A DNA stretch of 37,299 bases from Candidatus Aquidulcis sp. (GTDB lineage: Bacteria; Chloroflexota; Anaerolineae; Anaerolineales; UBA4823). Below are positions 727-36,558 of this stretch, piece by piece. Every line of letters starts with the position of its first letter. The stretch's first letter is position 1. The notes below the pieces were generated by a model. It was not told the origin of the DNA and searched no databases. It worked only from the letters and a program-made list of their open reading frames with translations. The stretch covers positions 1 through 37,299 of the forward strand of contig DYIZ01000051.1 of the NCBI GenBank assembly GCA_020723385.1, given 5' to 3'. The translations under genes were made by a program, and so were the position numbers.

Positions 727-758
727 TCCACCCGATTTCTGATAAATCTGTAAATCGT

Positions 759-2618
759 CTACTTCACGGTGGTAGATACCACTTTTGGGGTAGCGTTCTT
801 CTTTTCCCAAAATTCCCAACTCGACCAGCCCAGGCGTAAAATCAGCGCCGCGACTGATGCGATGACAGGAATCATAAGCAGTGATGGTATTTGTTTGGGC
901 AGATCAGAGGTAGATTTAATCAGAGGTATTAGTTCATGCGTCAATTTTACCAGGACCCATGTGGTTATCGCTGTGTCGAACAGTAGTATTATTGCTCGGG
1001 GAAACAAGATCGCGAACTGTCTCCAAATGCATTCCAAAGCATCCTTAACCCTCCTGCCTAAAGCTTGCCACCAATGATACCGTCTTTTGAATGACTCTTC
1101 ACCACTTTTTATGTCCTTCATTGCGTAAGAGAATATCAATGCGAATATGATAATAGCTAGGGCAATAATGGCAAAACAAATTTGCGTAGAACTCGGCAAA
1201 TATTCCCAGACCTGAATCCCTCTCTCGCAGTCTGGAAAAAATACCGACATCCAAACTATAAAGAAAATGAAAGTGATCAACATCCAATGGATATTTCGGA
1301 TCTGGTGCAGCAAAACGGCGACAATAACCCCGTTCAAAAGGATAATAATGGCAATTTCACCCCATGTACCTGTCCATAGAGACCGCCAACACGAAAGGTT
1401 AAATCCCAGTATCACACTAATGGCGAGAATAAACGCGCTCACATTCAGGATTACCCGGATGAAGTACCCTATATCGAAGGCATCACTTTCGCCCACTACC
1501 GGGATTTCAGGAGGAATACCTGGTTTATTCTGATCAACCGCCGGAGCGATAGGAGCTTTGTCGCGACTGACCTCTTCTGCATCAATAGTATTTTGGGGAC
1601 GCGATTTACCACACACAGGACACTGTTTTTCCCCATCTAGAAAAATTCTCCTGCACTTGGGACATTTATTGTTGGTTTGCTTGGGTAATGAGGGTACATT
1701 TGGCGTTGATTGATCGCTGCCGGGTTGTGGATCGCTTTCTCGTGAAGAGATGGAGGAATTCTCCTTTTCTTTTTTTATTGCAGGTTTCTGGATACTGCCT
1801 TCCAGCAGCCAGATGATCGCAACGACCACTGCTGGGATCACCCCATTCGACCAGGGCGGCAATAATAAATTTTTAATCGCCGAATCACTAAAGGATTTGG
1901 CGCGGTCGATGCACAATTGGATCGAATTGTCTGGCGGATTGTGTTTGACATCTTTGCCGCCATTCGCGCGGGGAGAATAATCATCTCCCGCCGTGCAATC
2001 GAAGACGCTGTCATCCCAATTAAGTGGCTGGAAAGAATCATCGGGGCGGTAGCGCCACCAAAATGTCAGAGCAAGGAGTTGATCCTCGCTTACACGGTCG
2101 GGAATGATCACGTTAAAAACGATATGCGACTGAGTACCAGGATACAGTAATTGCTCAGCATGACCTGACCAGAGTGAGTTGTCTTGGCTATCTGCCAGTT
2201 TCAGGGTAACGTGCTTCGAGATGGATTCCCCTGCCTGATCCTCAATCTCGGCTGCAACCAGAATTTCTACTAACATTGGGGACGATGGAAGAGATTTTGC
2301 CGGATCTGTTCGGGGTTGATACTTCAGCTCTATATCTACCTCACGCTCGACGAAATCGCTGACATATTTAGGTACTCGGATCGCAACCGCCAAGGAGGTT
2401 TCTTGTGTAGTGGCGATTATATCGGGCGAGGAAGTTTCCTGAGTATTGGTTATTGGGGATGGAACGGAGGCTAATGTAACATCTTGCCAGAACTCCGAAC
2501 GGTAAATCGAATTAATACACGGGTAGATCACCAGATAGTAAAGTATGAAAGCCATTCCACTCATCAGAATAGCCACGATCCAGCTCTCTCGACGCAGCAA
2601 TTTTGGAGTATCTTTCAC
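759..2618 (-). CDS. g1: polytopic membrane protein with cytosolic zinc ribbon (function unknown)
   Basis: A 619-residue membrane protein with no function I recognise. One membrane segment (about residues 13-33) precedes an extracytoplasmic, probably beta-rich domain (about 40-265). A second segment (about 268-286) and a polar linker follow. Then comes a zinc ribbon with Cys319-x2-Cys322 and Cys333-x2-Cys336, and about six further hydrophobic segments in the C-terminal third. I chose a GTG start at 2618 because GGGGAGG lies 5 bases upstream and the preceding gene's TAA at 2623-2621 sits in that spacer. An in-frame ATG 26 codons further up (2696) lies deep inside that gene and has no such site. 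The protein ends at a TAG, just before transposase debris, and its tail looks complete. It is the last gene of the cluster and is visibly AT-richer than g8-g11. A membrane scaffold or adaptor is possible but inferred. Confidence 0.8.
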   Translation of the reverse strand: MKDTPKLLRRESWIVAILMSGMAFILYYLVIYPCINSIYRSEFWQDVTLASVPSPITNTQETSSPDIIATTQETSLAVAIRVPKYVSDFVEREVDIELKYQPRTDPAKSLPSSPMLVEILVAAEIEDQAGESISKHVTLKLADSQDNSLWSGHAEQLLYPGTQSHIVFNVIIPDRVSEDQLLALTFWWRYRPDDSFQPLNWDDSVFDCTAGDDYSPRANGGKDVKHNPPDNSIQLCIDRAKSFSDSAIKNLLLPPWSNGVIPAVVVAIIWLLEGSIQKPAIKKEKENSSISSRESDPQPGSDQSTPNVPSLPKQTNNKCPKCRRIFLDGEKQCPVCGKSRPQNTIDAEEVSRDKAPIAPAVDQNKPGIPPEIPVVGESDAFDIGYFIRVILNVSAFILAISVILGFNLSCWRSLWTGTWGEIAIIILLNGVIVAVLLHQIRNIHWMLITFIFFIVWMSVFFPDCERGIQVWEYLPSSTQICFAIIALAIIIFALIFSYAMKDIKSGEESFKRRYHWWQALGRRVKDALECIWRQFAILFPRAIILLFDTAITTWVLVKLTHELIPLIKSTSDLPKQIPSLLMIPVIASVAALILRLGWSSWEFWEKKNATPKVVSTTVK

Positions 2619-2620
2619 TA

Positions 2621-4663
2621 TTACCTCCCCAGCTCGCACTTTAGGTCTTTCCCCCATAAGTCGCAGCTTACAGACGAAATTGGAGTTATTTCCCATTCAG
2701 GCCAGGATATCCGAACACGTTCACAATCTTCGAATAGATGATCAGCTATCGGCTTATAAATTTTGAGCGTGATCGTGATTCCATTTGTATCTTTGATGCC
2801 CAGCTTAACCCCATCGTCTCCATAGCTTGTTGCATACGTTCCTAGAAGGTAACAGTCGTTTCCTGTGAACTGAAAACTCGGTTGGGCTTTCTCGTATAAA
2901 GCAGGTTGGTATCTTTGATCTATGTATTTGAAAGTCAAGGCAAATCTGACATAATTTGCGGCTCCGCCTAGAGGATCATCCAATCGCTCGATAGGAGAAT
3001 GAACAGAGGGTTGATAGTAGACGGGTAGAGTTTGGGTAATCTGTGTGTATATTTGAGGTGAGCTTGCCCAATCATAAATCTGCGCGCCAAGGTCGATCGT
3101 ACCGGTTAAGGGAGGCTGATCGAGTAAATGAGTATCGGTTATCGTTGGCGACCATTGAATCCTGGGGGATAGAGGCAAATCACTGACTTTGGGTACTGGG
3201 TTTACCTCAGCCCACGACAAATCCATATTCGCTCGATAGCACTCGTTCAACTTATCCCAATCTGGGTCATTGAAATCTGTAACGCTTAAAGAGAGCGTGA
3301 AATCAATTTGATGGACCGGTAAGGCGATCTGGTTGACGTCGAGCCGATCAAACTGAATCTCGCTGCGTTTTGCCGTCCACCAATAGAAATACAAAGCGCC
3401 TTCGGCAAATTGAAATCCTGGAGGGGGACCTATCTGCCAGGTATGCGTCATACAGGACGGTAAAGGGAAGAAGCCGAACTCTGGAAGACGATGGATTATT
3501 TCCAAGGTGTCATCCTGATCTAGTTGACGATGTTCTCCATTATCGCCGGTAAATTCGAAGCCTGTCCAATTATGGATAACATCGGCCACGTAAATGGCAG
3601 CATGTCCCCATTTTAGAGGCATCTCGATACTCGCCGTTGGTTGATCTTTTGTCAGCCATCCCCAATGCCATGAGTCGGGACCATTTTCATAAGCCGGCAG
3701 CACATGTTCAGTAACGAGTTGATCGATCAACTCGCCCATTTCATTTAATAAACAGCTCAAGTTTTGGGAGATACCCCCGGAATCTATAGAATACAGCCCA
3801 TCAATATTATGATCTACATTAGCTCGATATTTCCACCAGTTCAAATTACTGTCGCCAATCACTTGCGAACAAATCAGCACAGAAAGGATCTTCGTTTTGC
3901 GATCCGAACCCAGTTGGTTAAGTGCATTTAAGGCTTCACCCTGGTAATCTAACAAACTCATACGCTGTTCATTAGGAAGGTTGCGGGTATAGTTTTGTGG
4001 ATCGAAGTTACCGTCTCCGATCAGGATGACCACACGATCTTCTTTGTTCTCAGTGATCGGCCCCAGGGTGAACTGGTCGGAAACCCGATGAATTCTGACA
4101 TAATCATTAGGAGTAAGCTTTTGGTCGAGTTTGGTATGGCTGGCTTTCTCCCAGACATCATCGTTGAACTCGATAGCCTGGAATTGTTCTCCGGCCTCAG
4201 GAGGTTTATTCAGTAAAGCTTTGCCATCATCTGGCAACGGCTGGCTGGGTGTTTCCCCGTCTCGCTTATCCAGGTGAAGCACCCGTACTTGGGCAGAGGG
4301 CGACTGAAATTTTATGACTGTTAGCAGGTAGCGAGCAATTTCGAAACGGAGGCCGTCAGGGTCACAAGGTTGGTCTTTATACTCTTCCACACTTGCTGAG
4401 CTGTCAATGATCATCACAATTTCTGGCGGCGCGGGCGGCGGTTGGGGAGTAACAGAATTGTCAAAGGTAAAGCTCTCCGACGTTTCAGGTGGTGGGGACC
4501 AAATAAAAATCCCCTGAGGAACTGGGGTCGGCGTTGCCATTGGTGCGGTGGGAGGCAATGAAGTTGCGACAGGCGTGGTGGGCACAGGTGTTGGTGTTGT
4601 TCCACCACATGACCTCAGTACGAAAAGGAGCAATAAACAACCCCTCAAGTATTTTTGGAGCAT
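2621..4663 (-). CDS. g2: vWA-domain lipoprotein
   Basis: A 680-residue predicted surface lipoprotein. The N-terminus is hydrophobic and ends in an LRSC lipobox-like site (Cys19), followed by a Thr/Pro-rich spacer (about 22-50). A von Willebrand factor A domain begins near residue 80. Its MIDAS motif D87-x-S89-x-S91 is intact, and VVILIGDGNFD near residue 210 fits the later Asp-containing strand. The C-terminal 400 residues are beta-rich and unassigned. vWA domains usually bind protein ligands through a metal ion. Start: AGGAGAGGG lies just upstream of the ATG. The gene ends inside the ribosome-binding site of g1, so the two are probably translationally coupled. It is the second vWA protein of the cluster: g14 opens it, this one is near its end. 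Lipidation is predicted from the lipobox only; the residue before Cys (Ser) is acceptable but Arg at -2 is unusual. Confidence 0.85.
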   Translation of the reverse strand: MLQKYLRGCLLLLFVLRSCGGTTPTPVPTTPVATSLPPTAPMATPTPVPQGIFIWSPPPETSESFTFDNSVTPQPPPAPPEIVMIIDSSASVEEYKDQPCDPDGLRFEIARYLLTVIKFQSPSAQVRVLHLDKRDGETPSQPLPDDGKALLNKPPEAGEQFQAIEFNDDVWEKASHTKLDQKLTPNDYVRIHRVSDQFTLGPITENKEDRVVILIGDGNFDPQNYTRNLPNEQRMSLLDYQGEALNALNQLGSDRKTKILSVLICSQVIGDSNLNWWKYRANVDHNIDGLYSIDSGGISQNLSCLLNEMGELIDQLVTEHVLPAYENGPDSWHWGWLTKDQPTASIEMPLKWGHAAIYVADVIHNWTGFEFTGDNGEHRQLDQDDTLEIIHRLPEFGFFPLPSCMTHTWQIGPPPGFQFAEGALYFYWWTAKRSEIQFDRLDVNQIALPVHQIDFTLSLSVTDFNDPDWDKLNECYRANMDLSWAEVNPVPKVSDLPLSPRIQWSPTITDTHLLDQPPLTGTIDLGAQIYDWASSPQIYTQITQTLPVYYQPSVHSPIERLDDPLGGAANYVRFALTFKYIDQRYQPALYEKAQPSFQFTGNDCYLLGTYATSYGDDGVKLGIKDTNGITITLKIYKPIADHLFEDCERVRISWPEWEITPISSVSCDLWGKDLKCELGR

Positions 4664-4729
4664 AGATTCCCTCTCCTGACATGAATTCGACTTATTTCGG
4701 CGTTATCAGTATCAGCCATAACTGCCAAG

Positions 4730-5557
4730 TTAACGATGCGTGGAACGTCGCGGAGGCGGTCGGCGAACGATAGGCCGACGCACAATCGGGCGGCGAGGAA
4801 CTGGCCTCCGCGGTAGAGACAGACGGGATAAGTGGGGTTTGGGCGTCAAGGTGATCAATACATATACAATTCCTCCAACCAGCCCTGCTCCCGCGATTCC
4901 CAATCCAACGACTACGGCTGGGGAAACCGGCGAGGCCGGTGTCAGCACAGCCTCTAGTGTGCCTTGAGTCCCATTCCATGTCGCTACGCCGCCGCTTACC
5001 CGCCGGCTGTTGCTGGAAATAATCTTGCCTCCGTGCAGGCGAAACGTGACCGGCATCAATGCGCTCATACCGGTAGTGTCTTGTGGCACAATCATCACGA
5101 ATCGCAGTTGCCCGTCCCCGATATCTGAAACCGTAAGCGCATAGGGCCAGTTTTCACTCCCGGTCGTTCCAAGCTGGCTCATCATGGCCGGGTCCGGCGT
5201 TGCCAGCCGGGATAACTGGTTCCAGCCTTGCCCTTTGATAGTGACCTTGTAAGCTGTTTCGCTGCCCCTTTGTCCACGCCCGCTCGCCCACGAGGCCTGC
5301 AAGCCTTGGTTTTCGCAATAAATCACCATCTGATCCAGGGTGGTTTCCACGGCCAGGGCGCTGATCTCTCCAGTGTCGAAACTCAAGCCAATTCCTACAA
5401 TGTCTCCTCCGACATCCGGCATCACCCCCAGGTTGAGCGAGATCGTGGTTTTCAATTCCCATCGCTCATTGGTTTGGAGCGTCAGGTCCGTTTCTTGTGA
5501 ACAAGCAGCCAGTAAGAGGCTTAATACTATTATCAGGAATAAACTGTGGTTTCTCAT
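4730..5557 (-). CDS. g3: lipoprotein with C-terminal TM and Arg/Pro tail
   Basis: A 275-residue protein with a clear lipoprotein signal (LLLAAC, Cys19) and an extracytoplasmic alpha/beta domain of about 190 residues. A C-terminal membrane segment (about 217-240) leads into a short Arg/Pro-repeat tail (RRPIVRRPIVRRPPPRR). With a lipid at one end and a membrane helix at the other, both anchors would sit in the cytoplasmic membrane and the basic tail would face the cytosol. The external domain resembles LppM/DUF3153-type domains in its order: an early VD/TDLT strand after the Cys, a central amphipathic section, and a late GKIISSNS...ATW motif. That family link is tentative. It is a paralogue of the adjacent g4: both share HxGKIISSNS followed by ATW and then the TM plus tail. 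Start: first ATG after the upstream gene, with only a weak GGGG-type ribosome-binding site. Confidence 0.82.
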   Translation of the reverse strand: MRNHSLFLIIVLSLLLAACSQETDLTLQTNERWELKTTISLNLGVMPDVGGDIVGIGLSFDTGEISALAVETTLDQMVIYCENQGLQASWASGRGQRGSETAYKVTIKGQGWNQLSRLATPDPAMMSQLGTTGSENWPYALTVSDIGDGQLRFVMIVPQDTTGMSALMPVTFRLHGGKIISSNSRRVSGGVATWNGTQGTLEAVLTPASPVSPAVVVGLGIAGAGLVGGIVYVLITLTPKPHLSRLSLPRRPVPRRPIVRRPIVRRPPPRRSTHR

Positions 5558-5597
5558 TGGCTTACCCCATAAGGTCTATTTATGGACTATATGAATA

Positions 5598-6356
5598 TTA
5601 TCTCCGGTGTGGCGACGGCGGTCGCCTGGGACGGTCCTTTGGCCGGCGAGCGCTGCCCAGGCCAAGTATCAGAACCAGCGCGCCCACTCCCACTGCCAGA
5701 AGTATCATCCCGCCTATTGCCCACGGCAGGGCAGTTTCCACAGTGACCGTAGCCCGTTTTACAGGCGTGAAAACCACATCTATCTCCCGCGGATTAGGCC
5801 AGGTCGCGGTGTTTTTCCCCTGGTGAGGAGAATTGCTGGAGATTATCTTGCCAGCGTGAAGCGTAATGTCCTGCTGATAGAGCGCCCTGGCAAAAACGTT
5901 GGCATCGCCAAGCAAGATGTACAGGTGGTATTGGCCAGGTATGGTCTCCGTCAAGGTGATCGTTTCGGGCAAGAGTTGAATGAACTGATCGTAGCTTCTC
6001 CCGCTGACTGATACCAGGTAGGAAGTCTCACTCGCCAATTGGGGACTGTTTCTTTGATACTGAATATCAATCGCTTTCGTGCCGTAATAGGAAACGAGTG
6101 TCTCTAAACCTCCTTCGACAGCATCATCCTCCACACCGCCGAAGTCTATCGGCAGCTCGAACGGCAATCCGATCCCTTCCAGCACTTTGGGCAGATACTG
6201 CCCCGCCACTTTCAAGATGCCCCCGTTGTAAACGATTTCGGATTCCGCCTTCCAGGTTCGATCATCGAAGAAAGTAATGTCAACCGTATGCGAGCAAGCC
6301 GTCATAAACAAGCTGCAAATCATCGAGATGGGCAATAGGAAGCGCGTGATTTTCAT
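5598..6356 (-). CDS. g4: lipoprotein with C-terminal TM and Arg/Pro tail, paralogue of g3
   Basis: A 252-residue predicted lipoprotein (FMTAC, Cys21). Its external domain carries the same closing signature as g3 (HAGKIISSNS then TATW). A C-terminal membrane segment (about 207-230) and a basic RRPKDRPRRPPSPHRR tail follow. g3 and g4 are therefore a tandem duplication that has diverged strongly at sequence level while keeping its architecture. The spacing to g3 is 40 bp; the gap to g5 upstream is only 6 bp, so g5 and g4 are very likely co-translated. The ribosome-binding site is weak (GAGG close to the ATG), which fits dependence on translation from g5. The function is unknown. A membrane-proximal partner of the tubulin assembly, with its tail contacting a cytosolic component, is inference. 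Confidence 0.82.
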   Translation of the reverse strand: MKITRFLLPISMICSLFMTACSHTVDITFFDDRTWKAESEIVYNGGILKVAGQYLPKVLEGIGLPFELPIDFGGVEDDAVEGGLETLVSYYGTKAIDIQYQRNSPQLASETSYLVSVSGRSYDQFIQLLPETITLTETIPGQYHLYILLGDANVFARALYQQDITLHAGKIISSNSPHQGKNTATWPNPREIDVVFTPVKRATVTVETALPWAIGGMILLAVGVGALVLILGLGSARRPKDRPRRPPSPHRR

Positions 6357-6362
6357 AGCGCC

Positions 6363-6884
6363 TCACGAAAAACGCCCATAAATCAAACCGCCAATAATCC
6401 CTGCCCCGACACACAGGGCAAAATCCACGATCAAAAACAAGGCCATTGGCGCTGCTGCGATGGTCAGGAGCAAGCCTACACCAGGTATCAATGTCGTGGC
6501 GGCTGCGCCAACCAAGAAATATACGATTATTCCAACTATTCCCAACACCACACCAGCCAGCGCCCCTTGAGCCGCGTAATTGGGGTGCCTGGAGCGCACA
6601 ACTTCATGATGTTGGCCAACCGTCCGCGTCGCCTTGTTATAAGATGACCGCGCCTGCGCCCCAGCGATAAAACCATTGAGCACGTAAGCCAAGAGCTGGA
6701 TGGGGTAGCAGATCAGACTGGCCGGAACTGTGGTGGAGGAAAAAATAGCAATGCCGACGCTGTTAACCAGAAACAGTACCAGCAAGATGGGAGTGGAAAT
6801 CAGGGCTGCTCGCAGGCCAGCCGGGGTGCGATCCCAAGGGCCAAGCGGACGCCCTAATCGAGTGGGGCGGCGATAAGTGGGCAT
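6363..6884 (-). CDS. g5: small 4-5 TM membrane protein
   Basis: A 173-residue integral membrane protein. A basic, Pro-containing N-terminus (MPTYRRPTRLGRPLG) is followed by hydrophobic segments around residues 25-47, 55-78, 105-128 and one or two more in the last 50 residues, which are rich in Gly and Ala. Start: the ATG at 6884 has AAGGAG eight bases upstream. A longer reading from 6944 would overlap g6 and lacks this site, so I reject it. The N-terminal segment recalls the Arg/Pro tails of g3 and g4 and the N-terminus of g6, and by the positive-inside rule would be cytosolic. The loop between the second and third segments (ARSSYNKATR...) is also basic. No family recognised. It sits 41 bp after g6 and 6 bp before g4. 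Confidence 0.8.
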   Translation of the reverse strand: MPTYRRPTRLGRPLGPWDRTPAGLRAALISTPILLVLFLVNSVGIAIFSSTTVPASLICYPIQLLAYVLNGFIAGAQARSSYNKATRTVGQHHEVVRSRHPNYAAQGALAGVVLGIVGIIVYFLVGAAATTLIPGVGLLLTIAAAPMALFLIVDFALCVGAGIIGGLIYGRFS

Positions 6885-6925
6885 TGATACATCTCCTTGC
6901 GGGACGAGCTCCGAGCCGTCCCGCT

Positions 6926-7420
6926 TTATGGAATCACTGGACATTCGACATCGGCAGCCGGCACGTAACGCGGCAGGCCGCCTAACAAAACTTGATACCA
7001 GAGAATCCCTTCCTGGTAGATCTTCCCTGTCACTGAGAGCACACGGCCTGACGCGATTGGCTCCTTGATGGTAACCAGCTTTGGCTCGGTATGGGCCTGG
7101 GTGTCACGACTCGCAGTGCAAGGGATAGGGGTTGCAGTAGGCAATGGCAGAGGCGTCTGAGTTTCGGTGGGCAATGGGGAGGTGGGTTCAGATTCCTGTG
7201 TCGCAGCGGCTGGCTGCGTGTTGACTGGCAACGTGGGTGTAACGGTAGGTTTGGGCCGGGAAAGGAAGATGCCGGCAACCAAAGCTGTAATGACCACGAG
7301 CAACAGGATGCCGCCCCCAACCAGCCAGTGAAAGGGAGTCACACGGAAGCGCGCCGCAGGCGGGCGAGGGTGTCTGGCGCGTGCTATTCGATAGGTGGGA
7401 CGTTCAGGTTGTCTGGGCAT
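6926..7420 (-). CDS. g6: single-pass protein with external SH3-like domain
   Basis: A 164-residue protein with a basic Arg/Pro-rich cytosolic N-terminus (residues 1-30, RPTYRIARARHPRPP) and one membrane helix (about 33-53). A Thr/Pro/Ser spacer (about 57-100) and a 60-residue C-terminal domain bracketed by Cys101 and Cys160 follow. That domain looks like a bacterial SH3-like (SH3b) fold: short strands, GRVLSVTGK, a Trp-Tyr-Gln-Val strand (LWYQVLL) and a closing YVPAADV strand. g8 ends with the same order of TM, Thr/Pro spacer and Cys-bracketed SH3-like domain. Bacterial SH3 domains often bind peptidoglycan or surface peptides, which would suit a wall-facing module; this is inferred. Start: GGTGAG upstream of the ATG, overlapping the stop of g7, so translation is coupled. 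Confidence 0.82.
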   Translation of the reverse strand: MPRQPERPTYRIARARHPRPPAARFRVTPFHWLVGGGILLLVVITALVAGIFLSRPKPTVTPTLPVNTQPAAATQESEPTSPLPTETQTPLPLPTATPIPCTASRDTQAHTEPKLVTIKEPIASGRVLSVTGKIYQEGILWYQVLLGGLPRYVPAADVECPVIP

Positions 7421-7423
7421 GGC

Positions 7424-8404: not shown

Positions 8405-8420
8405 AGAACAGCCTCCTTCA

Positions 8421-13940: not shown

Positions 13941-13970
13941 AAATAACCACTCCTGCAGTCAGGCGTTTTT

Positions 13971-20236: not shown

Positions 20237-20257
20237 AGCAATTCCTCATACGAAACA

Positions 20258-24946: not shown

Positions 24947-24956
24947 AGGATGCTTC

Positions 24957-27900: not shown

Positions 27901-29588
27901 TCACTGTCCCCCGCCAGCCAGGCGCTCCATGCAGGGAAATCCTCCGGCGCGCGGGCAATTTCTGCCGCGCGTTGTTCAACTGGCTCATCCACCGGCGCTA
28001 CCAGGATCACGATTTCGTCGGGCTTCACATCTGGCTCCCGATCAACTATCCCCAACATCCGCACTTGCGAGGGAATGCCATCGTACGATTCGCGAAGAGT
28101 AGCGGAAATCACATTCAGCGCGCTTAACCCGGCGGTGCCAATGCCCAAAACCAGGGCTTTGCCAGAGGATCGCGGCGGCTGTGCAGGCCGAGCGGGCAGC
28201 AGCGGCGGAGGCGAGGTAATAGCAACATCCGGCAAGCTGCTCCCGGAAAACGGCGTCAACCGCTCCAGGTTGGGCACAGTTCTTTGGGATAATGCGACCT
28301 CATCCGCTAACCAACAACGCAGCAGCCAGAGCAAAGCGATCAGAGGCAATAACAACAGCAAGCAAACCCACCACGGCAGACCCATCCAGCGACAAGGAAA
28401 CACAATTGGCCCCAGGCACGTGTCTAAGGAGCCGATCCCCGTGAAGACCACAGGGGTCTGGGTGGGCGAGGGCGTAAGCGATGGGGTGGGAGCAAGGGTC
28501 GAAGTTGGGGTGTGGGTTGGAGGCAGCTGGGTTGCCGTAGGAGAAGATGTGCGGGTAGCTGAAGGCGAGGGGATAATGGGAGTAGCAGTCACATCAGGCG
28601 GCAGGCCCCAGGCCGGCAAATGTTCGAAATCGGAAGTGTTCGCGCCAGGGAAAGGCATGACCTCGCCCGATTGGCCGTCCGGTCCAATTCGGGTGACGAA
28701 AATATCGTACTGCCCATTCCGCTCCGAGTTGAAAGCCAACCATTGCCCATCCGCCGACCACGATGGCCAGGAATCGCTGCTGTCGCTGTTGGCGTTCATG
28801 CGAATGGCTGTTCCGCCAGCGAGCGGGAGCAAGTAGATATCGGCAAATTCGCTTCCGTAACACCCCTCGTTGGCGCTGTGGTGGGTAAAGGCCAACCAGC
28901 GACCATCGGGTGAATATGCCGGATAGTAATTCCGACCGGTCGGCACACCTGACAACACTTCCGACGCGCCGCCGATGGCAGGCGCGACAACCAACTCTGA
29001 GTCCCCGTCTAGCTCGAAACCATCCGGGGCTGTGCTGGAGCGTACAAAAATAATTTCCTTCCCGTCGGGCGACCAAGCCGGCATCGTTTCGATCATGCCT
29101 GGCGCGCTGGCGCCCGAAAGCGGCGTCAGTGTTTGCTTTTCCAAATCTATGATGTAGATATCTTTATCGCCGTATGAAATTGCCAACTGGTCTCCATTCG
29201 GAGACCAAGAAAGGTAAGATGCGTTAGCAGATGGAAGCAGGATTTCTTGGCCGGTTCTCAAGTCGTACGCGACAACCGGCCCGGTAGCCGTATCCATTAC
29301 CGCCGCAATCCGCCCAGCCCGATTGGAAACGACATGGCAACCCACGCACCCTGACTGATTTAGAGAAGACAAAGGTTGCGGCGGCTGATTGGGCCGGGCG
29401 TAGTAGATTCCACTGTCTCCCCCCGAGATGCGCCAGAAATAGATTGTCTCGCTGGAGGCAAAGACTGGGTTCGGGGAGGAGGTAATCGTGGGGGATGCAG
29501 GTTGAACCTGAATTTCCCCTGTCGAGAGAGAAACAGTGATGAAAATCAGGCCAATACAGATCAGCAGGAAAGATGAAACTCGCGCCAT
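24957..29588 (-). CDS. g12: PD40 beta-propeller - TM - degenerate tubulin-like domain - TM fusion
   Basis: A 1543-residue protein. An N-terminal signal-anchor (about 7-23) precedes a TolB/PD40-type propeller (about 45-330) with repeats WSPNGDQLA, WSPDGKEII, YSPDGRWLAF and WSADGQWLAF. The propeller also holds a CVGCH motif (Cys81, Cys84, His85). A Thr/Pro spacer (335-380) and a membrane helix (about 406-427) lead to a cytosolic domain homologous to g13. It starts LGIGTAG (481-487) and continues with NSFAAWRELDRFQLAFD near 663, like NSFAAMREMDRFLLVFD in g13, then LYNSLGAF...LPVERM. The tubulin GTP signature GGTGSG of g13 is replaced by PGEAEA (610-615), so it probably does not bind GTP normally. 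Two more membrane helices lie near 1020-1070, before a helical C-terminus. The ATG has no clear ribosome-binding site and follows a strong hairpin. Confidence 0.86.
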   Translation of the reverse strand: MARVSSFLLICIGLIFITVSLSTGEIQVQPASPTITSSPNPVFASSETIYFWRISGGDSGIYYARPNQPPQPLSSLNQSGCVGCHVVSNRAGRIAAVMDTATGPVVAYDLRTGQEILLPSANASYLSWSPNGDQLAISYGDKDIYIIDLEKQTLTPLSGASAPGMIETMPAWSPDGKEIIFVRSSTAPDGFELDGDSELVVAPAIGGASEVLSGVPTGRNYYPAYSPDGRWLAFTHHSANEGCYGSEFADIYLLPLAGGTAIRMNANSDSSDSWPSWSADGQWLAFNSERNGQYDIFVTRIGPDGQSGEVMPFPGANTSDFEHLPAWGLPPDVTATPIIPSPSATRTSSPTATQLPPTHTPTSTLAPTPSLTPSPTQTPVVFTGIGSLDTCLGPIVFPCRWMGLPWWVCLLLLLPLIALLWLLRCWLADEVALSQRTVPNLERLTPFSGSSLPDVAITSPPPLLPARPAQPPRSSGKALVLGIGTAGLSALNVISATLRESYDGIPSQVRMLGIVDREPDVKPDEIVILVAPVDEPVEQRAAEIARAPEDFPAWSAWLAGDSDTRNRARQRLALWVHLQETRRRLRGELERLSLAEAAQRAMSLFVIVAPGEAEAAWLPDIVHLLRLEAERLKVQLIVYGCLILPDTFQKSHTSEQMTVAEQNSFAAWRELDRFQLAFDYPYPFPHPDEQTVRRGKLFERVYWFSPNRPQAALAGEMPERGIYPSIADAILGWLDPQARLEWDAVAHNTDNLSNNTQRRLNEPLYNSLGAFACVLPVERMVERGALRFAKAILEAQSTPPANSMREEALQCLEQESLTSGVKITSLIREIAGRARGDPKLPPIADLGALVADFIASDRSRADSQQAIKNIRTLIENYLPRAVRTSDGRRGRDYDGCYGPDIRRVIREAEAVDQEQAALERWMKAEIEIHLKIFNRLVCGQFQTPQIFSRLVNASIPEVLHQSEVMSAGRVAAFVEAMRVIIAEQRAIVAQCAKEWTQKAADQTVNVERHKKDLESNQETAERLPSLLAAILQGILPAITSEVLMGILAGFFAAVGLWIWLMLGLICGVLGGWWSWRKAHPRQIIPGLEKTFLNERQTYLEARIKADLYNTWEQTLAAFDDELVRILVPFRNWVTISEKLLESFSEKETRLEMAAREAGQIRTRRYLESKDLLASLYQRYLDARRAQEAGKRLYWHRDLTGDWALTILTTHEYPITLTCDAAATEAPPETLTTAETAMLDLCRWYAEPLRDVKIAEVMTNWIAEPDAIHACEGGSTPLIGSIPHEQTERQIHRFLFARLAGQESDRVAYFDQILAALKKAEVWERTQKRVELADPYRVIALATLDLLRRSGISQWSALRAAYLNTPSRRRACLHTFPAERNAVQIEIASSQIGVALPLLSSAACLILEDPLRARLFWLAYGLGYVRVMEEAAPGLASVRYYVMEFPTEGRLWKLTEPRDESPSLWEAAIAFVLGGAGGSTPVIQSALALPPGTPTRQRERCLEDALDSKMKPLLDSEKTLELGRMLQVCLEDELRRLEGGDGIW

Positions 29589-29636
29589 AATTTTTGGAGA
29601 GGAGCGGGATAGAGAACACCCCCGCGCCCTAAGGGT

Positions 29637-29677
29637 ACCCTGACCCTAAAGAGCTTTATCGCCTTTAGGGTCAGGGT
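29637..29677 (-). promoter_or_regulatory. Perfect 15-bp hairpin between g13 and g12
   Basis: Arms 29637-29651 and 29663-29677 are perfectly complementary around an 11-base loop. It begins 16 bases after the g13 stop on the minus strand. No run of U follows the stem in that direction, so it is not a textbook intrinsic terminator. It may be a partial terminator, an mRNA 3'-end stabiliser or a processing site that sets the ratio between g14-g13 and the downstream genes. The spacer before the stem contains a T-run (six T) directly after the stop codon. Confidence 0.7.
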
Positions 29678-29693
29678 CGTATGGTAGAAAAAA

Positions 29694-32600
29694 TCAGCTT
29701 GCCGCCATGCGTTCCAGTCGCTCGATTTCGTCCCACAGGATCAAGTGGATAATCGAGCCGAGATCATGTGTCAATTGATCTGGGTCGCTACGCATCGGCA
29801 ACACCTTGGCCCCAATATAATCTTCCAGGATGCGTACCAGTGTGCTATAAGAAGCAGACTTGACCTTAGAGATTTTTTCTTTGAGCAAATCCACCGTGAG
29901 CCTGGTCAAAGCGTTGCGCAATGCGGCCTCTTGATCTGGATTACCTGGCTCGACTGCTAGACAATCACGATTATCGTCAAGAAAAGCTTCGATGTATTTC
30001 TTCAACCCCCTATCTTCACTTTGTTCCTCCTCATTTTCCCCTTCTACTTCCTTTTGCCTGTCCAAGCCGTCCAGACGCGTCTCACGGTCATATTTATCGT
30101 AATCGGTTAGCAGAAAACGGCGCAGACCGTTGACCAGGATTGCGCGAGCATCAGCATGACTACTGTTCAGCAGGCTGGCATTTTTCTCCAACAGCTTATT
30201 GTATTCGAGAGCCACCATCTCGCGTCCATTCAAAATCGCTTTCTGCCGCAATTCAATCGCTTCGTCAACGCTCTTTGGCTCTACCTGGAAGTTTACCCCT
30301 GCTGTAACGTCCTGTATGTAGCGTGCGCCGGTATCCTTGTCAATCTTGACAAAGACAAAACCCGTCATTGCATCCAACTCCTTGGGCTTGTCGCTGGATG
30401 GGGGGGTCAGGCATACACGATAAGCCAGATCGCGCCTTCCTTTGCGGTCAAGGGTAAGCACCCATTGGGTTTTGTTGGGATCATTCTGAGACACTTCCTC
30501 GCGGATCATATTGAATACCCGACACAACACATAGCGGCGCGCCATGTCCTTATCTTCTAGAAGAGCCACCAAGCTAGGCGTAAGCAAGCGACGCGCCTCG
30601 CTGATCGGCGGCCTAGTAATACGATCTTCGAAACCGCTAGCGTTGACTTCCGCGGGGAAATTGTGAAGCAAACGATGGTCCCCGATGTAATCGAGATATG
30701 CCTTGCGAGAGGCCATCACTGGATCGATATCCTGGCCGACGATCAAATCCAGCGTAGAAAGGACGACGCAGCGATGCTTGTTAGTCAGCCCAATGACCTG
30801 GTTATCTTGATCGTTAGGAGCCTCTTTCTTCAGGCCAATGCCCAGATCGTTGAAGTAATCTACCTGAATGCCACGATTGACGCATACAAAATTGTGGCGC
30901 TCCAGGTAGTTCTGTTTGGTTGGGTCAAAGTTGACCAATGCGCCTGTATTATCAAGCATCTCCTTTGCCACGCCTTCTGCTCGGCGGAGCTTCTGGAAGC
31001 GATCGGCGATGGTCTCGTTACGGATGTCGGCAAAATAGGGGCGTAATTTGTCAACCAAGAAACGCGCATTTGCTTCACTTGCGGAAGTCTGGTAAGAAGC
31101 CAGGTTATATAGCAGTTGATCGCTGTACAAACAGCGGACGATGAAATCTGGCTTGTGCTCTTTCTCCCATACATAGCGATAACGCACCTGGCCATCTTCA
31201 GCCATCTCGGCAGCAATATTGGCATCTTCGTGCTGGAAAGCGATTTCCCACTTGAAACGCTTGAGCACCTCACCCCATTTCCCATCGATCATCTGTTTGT
31301 AGAGATCAGTCTCATATTCCTCATCGGTCAGGTATTGGTAAACCTTGATCGTCTGCTGTTCATCGCGGCGGCGCTTGATCTGCGCAGCCCGATCCAGAAG
31401 CAGCGTATATGCGCCGGATTCCTTTTCCTTGCTTTCCACTGGACCACCCAGGGTAAGCACATGTGCCCAGCGGTCGAGCTGCGTCTTGGCGTCTTCCACA
31501 ATGTCGCGGAACATATCGTTGTACTCCACCAGGGCCCGATATAGCACATCCTCGCGCTCCAAGGCAAAAAGGTAATCCTCCGCGGCAATGTAATCTTCTT
31601 GGGCATGGGTAGCAGTCTTTTTGAGGCGATCCAGAAAACCGGTAAGATCTTTGGTCTCATCCATAATCTGGCGGGTGCGGATAGCATCATCGCGAGCTTG
31701 ACTCATCTCGCCGCTCTTGGCGCGGTAATCCCACACGCGTTTGAGAAAGCCGCCAAATTCATCCAAACTCTTGATCATCCAACCCAGTACTTCCTGGACG
31801 TAAGGCATTTTGCCGCTCTTGGCAACCACTGGGTCGCTATTCTCTCCGTTAAGAATAATGCTCATTAGTTCGGATAGGATACGGCGGAAACGACGTCGGT
31901 TGAGAAGCGCATACTCAGCAATGCCTTTCTGGAGTTCGCCTGGGATCCGCCCGCCAGCATCTTCATAGCCGAGTTTCTTTTCACGAAAGCGTTTGATATC
32001 GCGCAAGATGCGGTCAGCTCCGCTATGGGTATCATCTCTTTCGATCTCACTGGTAACCACCTCGCTGGCCAGTGAGGCATCAATGATGGATTGGATGCTC
32101 TGGGAGATCAGGTTTACCGCATCGTCTTTTTCCACCGGCGACAGCCACGAGAGCAGCTCGATACCACGCCTGGCAAAGTCCCCGATATACTGGGGATCAT
32201 TCAAATTACCGCCTTCCAGCGTCAGCATCATCTGCTGGAAATACAAGATGTTCGGCGTGCCGCCCGGCGTTTTGTCGCTGTGGAAGGAAACCTTCATCGC
32301 CTCCAAAGGAACATCCCGCAGTTCGCGCTGGCTTTCGATGGTAATGCGGCGCGCTCCCGTGCGTGGATCCTCAACGATTTTGAAGAGACGATCGCGTAGC
32401 AACTCTAGCGCGGCGCGGTGCGCCGCGGTCTCGAGCATATCTTCCACAGGCAAGATGTATGTGTAAGTGCCCAAGCTGCTGTAGAGCGCCTTGCCCAGCT
32501 TTACCTGATTTTGCGCTACTCTATTGTTGACATTCTTGTAATGTTGGGCGAAGGTATCACCAGTTTCCGGATCCAGCAGAGCTGTGATACACTCAGCGAC

Positions 32601-33485
32601 CGCTGGGAACATCCCCAACCAGGGCTTGGTGCCATCCAGGGGTAGGTTTTTGCGCCGCGCATCCAGGATATAGCAATTATCGAAGAGCTTACTATTGTAA
32701 ATGCTCCGATAAACTTGCAAAGGTTCTCTTTGGGCTTTGTCTTCAGCGTAGTAAATTGGATACTCACGATCGAAAACAAGCAAGAAACGATCCATCTCGC
32801 GCATCGCAGCGAATGAGTTTGCCAAAATCAGGTTGATATCTATGACAGACTGGAAGGCATTCTGCAGCACCAGAAAAGCTCGCATAGCAAATGGCACTTG
32901 AGCCTTCTCAGCCAACTTGCGAGTCATATGCGCTATGTCAATGAACATTCCCGATCCGGTGCCGCCAGCCAAAGAGCAAACAATGTAAATCTCGATTGGC
33001 TGTCGCCGCTCATTTTTGCTCATGACATCGGTGATAGTTTGTTCGATCTTGCCAATGATTTGGGGAGGGTGCTGAATCAGATCATAAAATACGGCCATCC
33101 GGCCAAAGGGTCGACGCTGCCCGGCTCCTTTCGACAATTCGAAGGAATCATCATCGAGCGAGGTCAGGTAATAATCTGCTTGCAGCCAGGAGCTGATCTG
33201 GTTGTGGCGTTTTTCTTTCTTGATTTCGCTGCAGATGCCGCGAATGTTGCCGCCCAGGTAAACGAACTCACCCGCTTCGAGCTGGATATTACCAACGCGG
33301 GCATGTTCTTCGCCTTTTTCGACTTTGACCTCGGTCTTCTCGCTGGTCGTATCGAACGACAACAGCCTGACTGTGGGTGGCACCTCACCATAGGTATCCA
33401 GCAGGTTCTTTTTTACATAAGTCAGAGCCCACTGTCCGGTGCCGCCGAGGCCGATAATAATTGCAGGGTTTGAAGGTTTAGGCAT
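29694..33485 (-). CDS. g13: tubulin-like GTPase (Tubulin_2 type)
   Basis: A 1263-residue cytosolic protein with a tubulin/FtsZ-like NTPase domain at the N-terminus. It shows a Rossmann-type start IIIGLGGTGQ (10-18), DTTSE at 45-49, SKGAGQRRPFGR at 118-129, and the tubulin signature AGGTGSGMF (173-181) after strand IYIVC. This combination is typical of the Tubulin_2 family (Pfam PF13809), whose members are large and often sit with vWA genes. They have been proposed to remodel membranes. The remaining 1000 residues are mostly helical and include an acidic patch (EVEGENEEEQSED) near the C-terminus. No membrane segment. GTP binding is likely; polymerisation is unproven. Start: the ATG at 33485 has GGAGG five bases upstream; the ATG four codons earlier has none. 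It lies 124 bp after g14 and is followed by the hairpin. Confidence 0.92.
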   Translation of the reverse strand: MPKPSNPAIIIGLGGTGQWALTYVKKNLLDTYGEVPPTVRLLSFDTTSEKTEVKVEKGEEHARVGNIQLEAGEFVYLGGNIRGICSEIKKEKRHNQISSWLQADYYLTSLDDDSFELSKGAGQRRPFGRMAVFYDLIQHPPQIIGKIEQTITDVMSKNERRQPIEIYIVCSLAGGTGSGMFIDIAHMTRKLAEKAQVPFAMRAFLVLQNAFQSVIDINLILANSFAAMREMDRFLLVFDREYPIYYAEDKAQREPLQVYRSIYNSKLFDNCYILDARRKNLPLDGTKPWLGMFPAVAECITALLDPETGDTFAQHYKNVNNRVAQNQVKLGKALYSSLGTYTYILPVEDMLETAAHRAALELLRDRLFKIVEDPRTGARRITIESQRELRDVPLEAMKVSFHSDKTPGGTPNILYFQQMMLTLEGGNLNDPQYIGDFARRGIELLSWLSPVEKDDAVNLISQSIQSIIDASLASEVVTSEIERDDTHSGADRILRDIKRFREKKLGYEDAGGRIPGELQKGIAEYALLNRRRFRRILSELMSIILNGENSDPVVAKSGKMPYVQEVLGWMIKSLDEFGGFLKRVWDYRAKSGEMSQARDDAIRTRQIMDETKDLTGFLDRLKKTATHAQEDYIAAEDYLFALEREDVLYRALVEYNDMFRDIVEDAKTQLDRWAHVLTLGGPVESKEKESGAYTLLLDRAAQIKRRRDEQQTIKVYQYLTDEEYETDLYKQMIDGKWGEVLKRFKWEIAFQHEDANIAAEMAEDGQVRYRYVWEKEHKPDFIVRCLYSDQLLYNLASYQTSASEANARFLVDKLRPYFADIRNETIADRFQKLRRAEGVAKEMLDNTGALVNFDPTKQNYLERHNFVCVNRGIQVDYFNDLGIGLKKEAPNDQDNQVIGLTNKHRCVVLSTLDLIVGQDIDPVMASRKAYLDYIGDHRLLHNFPAEVNASGFEDRITRPPISEARRLLTPSLVALLEDKDMARRYVLCRVFNMIREEVSQNDPNKTQWVLTLDRKGRRDLAYRVCLTPPSSDKPKELDAMTGFVFVKIDKDTGARYIQDVTAGVNFQVEPKSVDEAIELRQKAILNGREMVALEYNKLLEKNASLLNSSHADARAILVNGLRRFLLTDYDKYDRETRLDGLDRQKEVEGENEEEQSEDRGLKKYIEAFLDDNRDCLAVEPGNPDQEAALRNALTRLTVDLLKEKISKVKSASYSTLVRILEDYIGAKVLPMRSDPDQLTHDLGSIIHLILWDEIERLERMAAS

Positions 33486-33609
33486 ACGTTCCTCCATGTA
33501 GAAAGGTTATGGTGTTGAGGTTGATAGGGTTTAACAGAGCAAGTCGTTGTTTATCTTGCAAAAATTTCCCGGGTTGCACTCCGGTTGTTTCACCACGAGT
33601 GGATTGAAC

Positions 33610-36558
33610 TTATAGTTTCAGTTTAAACTGATAGCTCTTCCCCTCGGCATCTTTCTGTGCACAGGTGATTTTTATTTCGTGAGTGCCTCTAGGTCTTTGG
33701 TGTGACTTTACCGCACCACGCGCAGCGGGCTTACCATCAATTCCAATAGCCTCGATACTGACACCGATCTTTTTCTCTTCATCTTGCTTGCCTTTGTTGA
33801 TAACTACATTCTCGACGCCCAAAATCTTGAGCCTTTTAAGCTTCAACCCGCCCATAGAACGCTCTCGTATGACGACTGTATGACGTCGAAAGCGAGTCAG
33901 GGGAAAAGACTGTATCTCTTTTCCTCCAACACCAATCCGCTCTGCGACCAATGCTCCGCCAACCTTAGGTAAGATGAAAAACTCCAGCCCAATCCAGATT
34001 GCTGCCGCTAGAATAACCGCAATAATTAGAACTATGCTGCCTCCCCACACCCATAACACCCAGCCCGGATCACGGCGAGCGAAAATTACCTCCACATCCG
34101 GCCAAAGATCCTTCGTTGGTACCCCGCCAACCACATCTCCCTGAAAATGGAATGTGGCTGTATAAGTGCCTCTCTCTGTTAAGACCAAGGTCTCAAATTC
34201 TAAAGAGGTCCCATCTTCTGCTAAAGGCAAAGTTTGGGTGATCACTGGATGATTCCCTGGTCCAAGTACTTGCATAAATGCTATCGCATTGACGTCGCTA
34301 GTAAAAGCATCCTTTACGAGGATAGCATGGTCACCGCGCCAGACCTCAACACGAAATTTCATCGGATTATCGATAGGCAACAATCCCTTATGCAAAGAAT
34401 GGGTGTTTTGCGCTATAGGTTTTCCATTTTCCGGAGAAACCACATTGAAATATGGCAAATTGGACGAAATCCGCAGAGGAGCTGGATAATCAAATGCCAG
34501 CGTTTTTTCTCCAGAAGGAAGCAAGAAGAAGCCACGGACCTGCAAAGTGTAATTACCTTCATCCACCAGCATCCAGTTTACGTGCCCGCCATACTTTCCT
34601 GCCTCATTCATTGGAAAGAGCGCCACTGGCCCCAACTGTGTTGAGTTGTTTGGCCAAAACAACTCAACCTCCAGACTCAAGGGATAATTTGCTTCAGGTG
34701 AAACAGGATTACCACTCTTATCTGCCAATTGGATTTGAATTTCCGTGAGGGGCGAAAATGCCGGGTAATGGGTGAGAGGCTGAATTACTCGAGGGTTGAC
34801 AGCGGTCTCGAAAGAGGTTTGGGCTGTATACAAGACCGTTCCAGTGGCCGGATTGCGCAACGTGCCGACTAGGGTATATGTACCCGTTTCAGGGAAGATG
34901 ACTGGATCCGAAATCGTATAGGCCCCCTGGCTCAACTTAGGCGATGGCAGTGGTGTTTTAACCCCTGATGGCGATATAGCTTCCAGATCCAGTTTCCAAG
35001 GAGTATCATCTGGGATAAGGATCGGCTGGTTATTAGAATCTAGATAATTAACAGTGATGCCTCGTACAGGGTAGTATTGAAAGAAAGGCTGTTGTGGATC
35101 CTTGACCTGAAAACTAGGGGCAACCACCGGAATTGTGTATGGATTCTCAAAGACCCGTATTGGTTCTGTGGATGTTAAGCAAGGCAGCTTGCCTAAATTC
35201 CGAGGATTAGTATATCCCTTGAGAGATAAGGTGTATTCCCCCAATTGGCCGATAGTAGGAATACCCTCCGACACATATCGCCCAATCGCTGGTTGACCAT
35301 CATCATCCAACTCGCGCTGGAGATCTATAGATTGTTGCTTGCCATCAGGTCCTGTAAGAGTGCCCTGAATTGTTATTGGAAAGTTAGGATCCTCATCTAC
35401 AAGATTTCCACTTTCATCTCGCAATTCAAACACCATCTTGAGAGGCGTCACAATCGGGTGGGCTGTTGCCGGCTCAACAAGTTTCAAATCGTTGAAAGCC
35501 ACCTGAACAATTATATCTACTTTCCCTTCCGTTCCACCTTCACTATACCAGCAACCAGCTTGAGGATATGCTAACACGACCATTTCATCGCGCGGAGTAA
35601 AGCTATGTTTTATTACATCTGGATCGGCTGGATCTAATTTGACTGAACTCCCATCGGCCCGTTTAAGGGTGATGTTTTCATTAGTGGTGTATTTGAAAAA
35701 ACTGAATGCAACCGATTTTGCGTATGGTTGGATAAAATGCCAACCTAGGCTACCAATATCACAATTGGTTTTGCTGCCAGATGGATTTAGATATGCACAT
35801 AATTTCTCAGCAACATATTGATTGACCTGATTGACATCATCAACTTTTTTATAATCAGCAACAAATTCCTTCCAGAATGGAGATACAATAGGGTCATAGC
35901 GATTAGCATCATCAATCGTAATTACGTAAAGAGGGTAGTAAGTCGCCAAGTTATATGTTTTGAAATAGGCATCCTGGATTTCCTTAAAAAGTTCCACTGG
36001 GCCACGGCCATCGCCTAAATCAGGTCCCCCATCGGTAATAATTACAATCAATCTTTGACGGATGCCGCTTTCTACTTCGTTCTGATCATCTTGCTCTGAA
36101 AAAACTTGCCTGACTTTGGCTAATGCTTCAACAAAGTTTGTAGCATCTAAGTTTTCTGGTTTTACCCCCTGTTTAGCCGCGTCCACAGCGTTCTGATCCC
36201 ATAGTGCAGTAAGCGGTACCTGAATTGTCGCGTGCATTCCGAAACCGATGACGACTACACGATTTCTGCGCTGCTCATTGATAAATTTATTGTCAAAGGC
36301 TAGATAATCGATTAAGTACTGTGTAGTGTAAACACGACGGTTATCAGGATCCGTCGGCTTATATGGAATCCCGCAGTTGAAACCGCACATACTGGAAGAG
36401 TGGTCCAGAAGCACAATTAGATCAAGACCTGGCTGAATTTGATCCTCATGAGCAGGTGCCGCAATAGCATTGTGAATGCCATTAGGTACAAGCTTGAAAG
36501 CCAGAATACCTGTAATTGCTATAGATACAAAAAAAACTATGGGAAATTTACGAATCAT
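33610..36558 (-). CDS. g14: single-pass surface vWA protein
   Basis: A 982-residue protein. An N-terminal signal or anchor (about 5-25) is followed by a vWA domain (about 45-270) with MIDAS residues Asp52-x-Ser54-x-Ser56 (DHSSS), a Thr-containing loop (DATNF) and VIITDGGPD. Several beta-sandwich domains follow (about 290-830; repeated 'Y-x-L-x-G' strands such as GEYTLSLKGYT, GTYTLVGTLRN, GNYTLQVRGFF and GTYTATFHF). A C-terminal membrane helix (about 834-864) and a basic cytosolic beta-rich domain of about 118 residues end the protein. The architecture resembles a surface receptor or adhesin: external vWA and Ig-like stalk, internal domain that could touch the tubulin-like g13 encoded next. 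Start: ATG after AGAGGATT. It is the first large gene and is visibly less GC-rich than g8-g11. The ligand is unknown. Confidence 0.88.
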   Translation of the reverse strand: MIRKFPIVFFVSIAITGILAFKLVPNGIHNAIAAPAHEDQIQPGLDLIVLLDHSSSMCGFNCGIPYKPTDPDNRRVYTTQYLIDYLAFDNKFINEQRRNRVVVIGFGMHATIQVPLTALWDQNAVDAAKQGVKPENLDATNFVEALAKVRQVFSEQDDQNEVESGIRQRLIVIITDGGPDLGDGRGPVELFKEIQDAYFKTYNLATYYPLYVITIDDANRYDPIVSPFWKEFVADYKKVDDVNQVNQYVAEKLCAYLNPSGSKTNCDIGSLGWHFIQPYAKSVAFSFFKYTTNENITLKRADGSSVKLDPADPDVIKHSFTPRDEMVVLAYPQAGCWYSEGGTEGKVDIIVQVAFNDLKLVEPATAHPIVTPLKMVFELRDESGNLVDEDPNFPITIQGTLTGPDGKQQSIDLQRELDDDGQPAIGRYVSEGIPTIGQLGEYTLSLKGYTNPRNLGKLPCLTSTEPIRVFENPYTIPVVAPSFQVKDPQQPFFQYYPVRGITVNYLDSNNQPILIPDDTPWKLDLEAISPSGVKTPLPSPKLSQGAYTISDPVIFPETGTYTLVGTLRNPATGTVLYTAQTSFETAVNPRVIQPLTHYPAFSPLTEIQIQLADKSGNPVSPEANYPLSLEVELFWPNNSTQLGPVALFPMNEAGKYGGHVNWMLVDEGNYTLQVRGFFLLPSGEKTLAFDYPAPLRISSNLPYFNVVSPENGKPIAQNTHSLHKGLLPIDNPMKFRVEVWRGDHAILVKDAFTSDVNAIAFMQVLGPGNHPVITQTLPLAEDGTSLEFETLVLTERGTYTATFHFQGDVVGGVPTKDLWPDVEVIFARRDPGWVLWVWGGSIVLIIAVILAAAIWIGLEFFILPKVGGALVAERIGVGGKEIQSFPLTRFRRHTVVIRERSMGGLKLKRLKILGVENVVINKGKQDEEKKIGVSIEAIGIDGKPAARGAVKSHQRPRGTHEIKITCAQKDAEGKSYQFKLKL

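Follow-up and report, generated by a model that had tools for sequence, protein, structure and literature searches.

FtsZl1/Tubulin_2 proteins are found across bacteria and archaea. The locus described here, in which such a protein is encoded among many membrane and surface proteins, raises the question of how a cytosolic tubulin-like GTPase could be coupled to the outside of the cell, and by which genes. The window (the whole stretch of DNA that was analysed, 37,299 nucleotides) is contig C157 in its full length, from a genome of 6.43 Mb in 239 contigs that falls by kinship in the class Anaerolineae of the phylum Chloroflexota. A preliminary description of this DNA had proposed that 14 genes on one strand, a Tubulin_2 GTPase among them, form a single machine with no obvious named counterpart. 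The gene set itself was confirmed, since all 14 ORFs lie on the minus strand (759-36558) and g13 is a Tubulin_2 protein. Signal, transmembrane (TM) or lipoprotein segments were counted in 11 of the 14 products, and not in 12 as previously stated, those devoid of them being g7, g10 and g13. The cluster is a Chloroflexota branch of the FtsZl1 (Tubulin_2, PF13809)/vWA predicted operons. Scans for promoters and terminators at the cluster ends gave signals near the shuffled level. Although the genes all run in one direction, the GC content swings from 45% at both ends of the window (1-37299) to 66% near 18-20 kb, which points to the cluster being of mosaic origin.

Six genes constitute a conserved core neighbourhood: those for a vWA protein (g14), TubA (g13), TubB (g12), two kinase-like proteins (g11 and g10) and a phosphoesterase (g7). 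Their features are the following:

33610-36558, minus strand: g14, surface vWA protein, core gene (VWA_2, E 7.5e-9)
35839-36426, minus strand: vWA domain of g14 with a DHSSS MIDAS motif, preceded by a signal peptide
near 33994-34071, minus strand: TM segment of g14, which together with an Ig-like region and a cytosolic tail follows the vWA domain
29694-33497, minus strand: g13 (TubA), Tubulin_2 (FtsZl1) GTPase (Pfam E 1.7e-47)
32949-32969, minus strand: intact T4 loop of g13, AGGTGSG (residues 177-183)
32385-33470 and 30570-30917, minus strand: the two pieces of the g13 tubulin fold, flanking a helical insertion (30918-32384)
24957-29588, minus strand: g12 (TubB; PD40 E 1.9e-21, Tubulin_2 E 2.8e-11)
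28584-29513, minus strand: TolB-like propeller of g12, preceded by a signal
29334-29348, minus strand: CxxCH (CVGCH), c-type haem attachment signature within the g12 propeller
28314-28391, minus strand: TM segment of g12, before the tubulin part
27207-28166 and 25374-25736, minus strand: degenerate tubulin of g12, flanking a coiled-coil insertion (25737-27206)
26379-26489, minus strand: hydrophobic membrane hairpin of g12 (about residues 1034-1070), forming the tip of a long antiparallel coiled coil
20258-24997, minus strand: g11 (1579 aa), with a kinase-like domain (22928-23872), a helical C-terminal part and a C-terminal TM segment
15620-20236, minus strand: g10, paralogue of g11, with a kinase-like domain (17312-18274) and no TM segment
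7424-8404, minus strand: g7, calcineurin-like metallophosphoesterase (Metallophos_2, E 2.2e-14)

Used as a query against 150 genomes of the class, g13 found a match in 27, and 80 named loci were drawn from GTDB contigs. The closest locus, that of Chloroflexi bacterium B30_G15 (QMOC contigs), has the same gene order spread over two contigs, with identities of 36% for the vWA protein, 54% for TubA, 32% for TubB and about 29% for the kinase-like gene. Counting Chloroflexota-type loci that have a readable neighbour at the position concerned, a vWA gene lies directly upstream of TubA in 35 of 40 and TubB directly downstream of it in 32 of 41, while a kinase-like gene directly follows TubB in 15 of 25 and the phosphoesterase directly precedes the vWA gene in 9 of 17. 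Without locus L076, the kinase count detected none but the genes of the window; the addition of L076 bridged the family. In 20 random regions of 20 kb from such genomes, with 333 ORFs in all, the TubA, TubB, kinase and MPE models gave no hits, and 3 vWA and 2 propeller hits were obtained. Dozens of Chloroflexota loci show the same core order, which is more than chance would give. Co-occurrence in related genomes, which the preliminary description had named as the check on its proposal, was in this way established for the core. The order varies, since the phosphoesterase gene of the window sits at the opposite end of the core.

A phylum-wide search with the full TubB alignment was overwhelmed by matches to the vWA and propeller domains, and for this reason Tubulin_2 was counted phylum-wide by its own model; it exceeds the Pfam cut-off in 24 of 201 Chloroflexota genomes, a patchy distribution. 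Outside this phylum, the TubB partner was recognised in Acidobacteria loci only (L133, which the model matched, and L131, recognised from its size and TM pattern), with models that may be too narrow. Chloroflexota-like versions of the operon also occur in contigs labelled as an Acidithiobacillus ferrivorans MAG (L083) and as Cyanobacteria bacterium M5B4 (L075), both of which are probably mislabelled or mis-binned. Sulfidibacter corallicola, with a complete genome and apparently outside Chloroflexota, encodes a TubA that shares 30% identity with g13, and genes for a kinase-like protein and a phosphoesterase lie close to it (L079); this operon possibly arrived by horizontal transfer, and the species could possibly serve as an experimental host. 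The operon is also present in the cultured Longilinea arvoryzae (L109). At one locus (L038, SSC4, G030:C1 4504527-4528182) TubA is intact, but of the vWA, TubB and kinase-like genes around it only separate short ORFs are seen, which looks like frameshifting or decay.

TubA and TubB are homologous along their length, and the Tubulin_2 model scores 162.8 bits for g13 and 43.7 bits for g12, against a curated PF13809 cut-off of 27. The GGTG[S/A]G T4 loop is present in TubA at nearly all loci and lost from the partner at nearly all. AF2 models of the two proteins were built separately, with the window and locus sequences as the only input, and reached a pLDDT of 80.6 for g13 (residues 1-1200) and 82.7 for g12 (from residue 440). 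The secondary structure of both models comprises an N-terminal FtsZ-like domain, an extended coiled coil and a mainly helical C-terminal part. Aligned by means of VIA-align, the TubA model matches CetZ1 with a Z of 24.4 over 310 of 330 residues (rmsd 3.9, model range 10..939) and the TubB model matches Methanosaeta CetZ with a Z of 24.7 over 312 residues (rmsd 4.4, model range 36..955); against CetZ, BtubB and tubulin, both give Z values of 20-25 over 310-345 residues, in ranges that skip the insertion. Alignment to almost all of CetZ over such a range points to a tubulin fold that is complete but interrupted: both proteins are predicted to retain the GTPase and the C-terminal domain, split by a helical insertion of ~480 residues. 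Judging from the order of secondary structure elements, this insertion (about residues 372-860 of g13) would lie between H8 and S8, within the C-terminal domain. Foldseek alone gave E values of 1e-3 to 1e-2, probably because the fold is split, and VIA-align then resolved the match. An iterated profile of the C-terminal piece matched near the C-termini of 17 of the 42 Tubulin_2 proteins that do not belong to the main set from Chloroflexota, weak evidence that the split fold may be general.

The catalytic acids of T7 show no clean conservation in either protein, which counts against the main reading presented below: one alignment column is acidic in 16 of 23 TubB and 8 of 31 TubA sequences, and the position three residues on in 9 of 23 and 20 of 31, respectively. 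These counts speak clearly neither for nor against a complementary T7, in which TubB would provide the acid missing from TubA. No FtsZ_C domain was hit by Pfam in g13 or g12. Two ordinary FtsZ genes are present elsewhere in the genome (C59 and C163), indicating that the g13/g12 system is not the division FtsZ. An apparent TubA-TubB fusion in G393, an ORF of 3513 aa, is an artefact, the two genes being linked by nothing but a stretch of N that marks a scaffold gap. At the same locus (L165/L166, G393:C83:99298-109839), the C-terminal end of TubA consists of tandem near-identical zinc-ribbon repeats (CAGSDHHPLAEGVNFCPICGK).

The preliminary description had regarded g12 as a degenerate tubulin fused to a propeller. 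Pfam supports both parts (PD40/TolB propeller and Tubulin_2), and the GTP-binding loop is lost, the T4 position reading VAPGEAEAA. The term degenerate is not strict for TubB as a family, because the loop is nearly intact (GATGSG) in L076, the closest relative. In relatives, the TubB proteins have TM peaks in pairs at the corresponding site of the insertion, and their ectodomains vary, the architectures being CAP-vWA-TM-TM-propeller-TM-tubulin, vWA-TM-tubulin or none. TubB lacks both TM segment and ectodomain in L081, L083, L088, L098 and L101, so membrane anchoring is not universal. The proposed link between a cytosolic tubulin and the cell surface is embodied in one polypeptide, since g12 and its relatives run from ectodomain through TM segment to tubulin.

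Apart from the haem motif, the propeller of g12 is TolB-like. The CxxCH signature occupies the same position in 12 of 12 propellers of the system and is absent from 4 other propellers matched by the same model; a Met and a His further along the system propellers are as conserved as the CxxCH itself. The genome carries two cytochrome c assembly proteins. The g12 propeller combines the signature with a predicted extracytoplasmic location, in a genome with maturation machinery, and on these features, those expected of a c-type haem protein, it probably binds haem.

The kinase-like proteins g10 and g11 share 50% identity over about 600 aa. Pfam gave no hit with either protein alone, while a profile of 14 sequences (g10, g11 and orthologous domains) matched PknB with an E of 2.5e-26 and, as best solved Ser/Thr kinase, one with 2e-30; the earlier designation as kinase-like is borne out by these matches to PknB-type kinases (E about 1e-26). 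The protein of 346 aa encoded directly after TubB in G128 belongs to the same family as the g10/g11 domain according to an iterated profile, and hits ABC1 at 2.9e-5 (just over the Pfam cut-off) and Pkinase at 5e-5 (below it). In the alignment of g10 and g11 the Lys, the Glu and the DFG-type Asp are kept and the catalytic Asp is one residue out of register in both; g10 also has the catalytic-loop Asn and the DFG Gly replaced. Given these changes both proteins may be inactive, and g10 is probably a pseudokinase. The start of g7 was over-called, the ORF opening at 8515 and the probable start being at 8404, behind GGAGG.

The remaining genes are accessory and mostly lineage-specific (g1-g6, g8 and g9):

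13971-15623, minus strand: g9, with a helical cytosolic N-terminus, a TM segment and a Thr/Pro-rich outside part
8421-13940, minus strand: g8, repetitive-helical (TPR-like) cytosolic protein of 1839 aa, with a TM segment (8865-8927), a Thr/Pro linker and a small outside domain
6926-7420, minus strand: g6, with a single TM segment, a Thr/Pro linker and a small outside domain resembling the g8 C-terminus
6363-6944, minus strand: g5, four-TM protein, weakly DUF5518-like (E 0.0014, below the Pfam cut-off)
5598-6356, minus strand: g4, lipoprotein with a C-terminal TM segment, tandem paralogue of g3
4730-5557, minus strand: g3, lipoprotein with a C-terminal TM segment, tandem paralogue of g4
2621-4663, minus strand: g2, secreted protein whose DSSAS motif is vWA-like (region 3674-4420)
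759-2696, minus strand: g1, with multiple TM segments and a motif resembling a zinc ribbon (Zn_Ribbon_1 at E 0.07, which is below the Pfam cut-off)

The view of all 14 genes as a single machine finds no support in this part of the cluster: no homologue of g1, g2, g6 or g9 occurs in the related neighbourhoods, and those of the other genes are sporadic there, with three homologues for g8, one for g5 (downstream of the G029 operon) and one for g3/g4 (beside TubB in G091, C69:51003-51425). The proteins g3 and g4 are 27% identical and end in a basic tail after the C-terminal TM segment. Two earlier assignments stood in part. The description of g8 as a TPR scaffold of 1839 residues is right in length and in the repetitive helices, and the match to TPR is weak (TPR_1, E 0.011). 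As for two vWA surface proteins, g14 is VWA_2 by Pfam, whereas g2 is so called from its DxSxS-like motif (DSSAS) alone and Pfam returned nothing for it even at E 5. The small outside domain that follows the Thr/Pro linker is similar in g6 (6926-7180) and g8 (8421-8750), with an E of 2.9e-4 in an iterated search, and no Pfam family was found for it. No Pfam hit was obtained for g9, whose start was over-called (the ORF opens at 15980, and the probable start, behind GGAGG, is at 15623).

The reading that we prefer, for which we consider the chances evenly balanced, is that of a transmembrane sensor that controls the GTP-driven assembly of TubA, is tuned by the kinase-like proteins and the phosphoesterase, and has local membrane remodelling as its output. 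TubA, a soluble GTPase whose nucleotide loop is intact, would assemble in a GTP-dependent manner on membrane-anchored TubB. The latter, with its decayed nucleotide loop, would be held in the membrane by the TM segment before the tubulin and by the hairpin at the tip of the coiled-coil stalk, and its outside part would act as a sensor-like ectodomain, here the propeller with the c-haem signature and in relatives also vWA and CAP domains. The state of this ectodomain, be it one of redox, of ligand or of contact by way of the two vWA proteins, might control the nucleation or release of TubA, which TubB would nucleate or cap. The kinase-like proteins and the phosphoesterase would tune the TubA/TubB system, and the output would be the remodelling of the envelope or membrane at a local scale. 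Gene order, domain order and the presence or loss of motifs can be read from the sequences, whereas fold and topology are predictions. In favour of this reading are the recurrent gene order, the loop pattern of the pair, the fusion architectures, the matches of both models to CetZ, the kinase-like profile and the CxxCH; against it, besides the T7 acids, are the TubB proteins that lack TM segment and ectodomain, the nearly intact loop in L076 and the shifted catalytic Asp of g10 and g11. We put forward more tentatively that TubB could be a tubulin-based transmembrane receptor, its haem/vWA sensor being outside and its cytosolic tubulin fold nucleating or capping a GTP-driven TubA filament, with no separate transducer. 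If this were true, an external signal would directly switch a cytoskeletal polymer. These readings and their rivals are not mutually exclusive, and the confidences given to them need not sum to one.

FtsZl1 proteins might not polymerise at all, and TubA, TubB and the kinase-like proteins could instead constitute a discrete GTPase signalling complex, a doubtful but conceivable solution for which Makarova and Koonin left room when they allowed for the absence of filaments (PMC2875224). The poor conservation of the T7 acids agrees with it and the large insertions could block a filament lattice; however, the whole tubulin fold is predicted to be kept, including the domain that makes the longitudinal contacts. 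A role in conflict (anti-phage defense or cell suicide), in which the ectodomains or the kinase-like proteins would sense invasion and the tubulin pair would oligomerise as a threshold switch, as has been suggested for GAP1-N2/DO-GTPase systems, seems unlikely to us. The Firmicutes systems of that group share two tubulin and two vWA genes as well as membrane parts (PMC7159879), the distribution of Tubulin_2 is patchy, as stated above, and a gene for an nSTAND1-WD40 NTPase lies between TubA and TubB within the G137 operon (L043:2942-6583, plus strand), a possible hint of such a role. However, DO-GTPase2 and GAP1-N2 are absent from this genome, no DO-GTPase2 passed the threshold in 22 related genomes, and the window yielded no effector domain. 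PADLOC gave no convincing match, the best one (E 0.0085) being a weak similarity to PD-T4-6 in g11 only that is due to the kinase-like domain, and an anti-phage identity on this basis was rejected.

Finally, the tubulins could be a mere scaffold for a surface appendage, an adhesion or a secretion apparatus, with the vWA, propeller and CAP domains as exported adhesins on a cytosolic ring, which we regard as distinctly unlikely. Many outside domains are indeed carried on Thr/Pro linkers, and PilY1 of type IV pili also combines vWA and propeller, with a separate noncanonical cytochrome c (PMC8833165). Nevertheless, Pfam detected no secretion gene in the window, be it for a pilin, a secretin, a secretion ATPase or another component, and ectodomain and tubulin belong to one and the same chain.

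A complete fold split by a long stalk, as predicted here, makes testable the question of filaments that was left open in 2010. A tubulin that spans the membrane and has, on the outside, a probable haem sensor would couple an environmental signal to a cytoskeletal GTPase in a new manner, of which we know no earlier case. What is new is the predicted complete split fold, the membrane hairpin and outside domains of TubB and the CxxCH in its propeller, this kind of operon being already known since 2010.

With respect to known tubulins, the predicted fold of g13 and g12 is like that of CetZ, FtsZ and tubulin (Z 20-25 over 310-345 residues), but both proteins differ from these in the lack of an FtsZ_C hit, in the insertion of ~480 residues in the C-terminal tubulin domain and in an identity of 8-19%. 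As in BtubA/B and the alpha/beta-tubulin heterodimers, two paralogous tubulins are encoded side by side; unlike in those, one partner has lost the GTP loop and spans the membrane. The pilus-tip protein PilY1 also has vWA and propeller outside the cell, a functional analogy only, and no pilus genes are present here; its maturation in Myxococcus involves a cytochrome c (PMC8833165). In the open-access literature, which leaves out most subscription journals, no paper was found on a transmembrane tubulin with an ectodomain, and no experimental study of an FtsZl1/Tubulin_2 protein was found.

The statement that the cluster has no obvious named counterpart was too strong, since two groups of systems are close to it, the FtsZl1/vWA/kinase operons of 2010 (PMC2875224) and the two-tubulin, two-vWA GAP1-N2 systems of 2020 (PMC7159879). 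The GAP1-N2/DO-GTPase systems of the Firmicutes type encode two tubulins, two vWA proteins and membrane components, while a kinase is present in another type (Kaur et al. 2020, PMC7159879). The present cluster has all of these in common with them, including the membrane location. However, DO-GTPase2 (PF19993) and GAP1-N2 (PF20013) gave no hits in the whole genome, the C. glutamicum control being positive for both, and the second tubulin is here a transmembrane protein with an ectodomain. Because both marker families are absent, the cluster is not a GAP1-N2/DO-GTPase system.

The FtsZl1/vWA/kinase operons have been described with membrane proteins and with a predicted role in membrane remodelling (PMC2875224), in agreement with the preliminary description, which had taken Tubulin_2 genes beside vWA genes as known. 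They share with the cluster a Tubulin_2 protein with a coiled coil and a helical C-terminus, a MIDAS vWA neighbour, kinases (frequent but not universal in these operons) and many membrane proteins. Unlike in the operons of 2010, the regular second partner is here a membrane-spanning degenerate tubulin fused to vWA, CAP or a CxxCH-propeller, and a phosphoesterase is linked; the diverged P-loop GTPase and OmpA, both frequent but optional in FtsZl1 operons, were not found by Pfam in any of the 14 window proteins. Makarova and Koonin (2010) did not detect one half of the FtsZl1 tubulin fold and left filament formation open (PMC2875224), whereas structure prediction here recovers the missing half. 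A reviewer of that work raised the question of how vWA proteins located outside and a tubulin in the cytosol could act together (PMC2875224), and the fusions of ectodomain and tubulin in TubB offer a physical answer.
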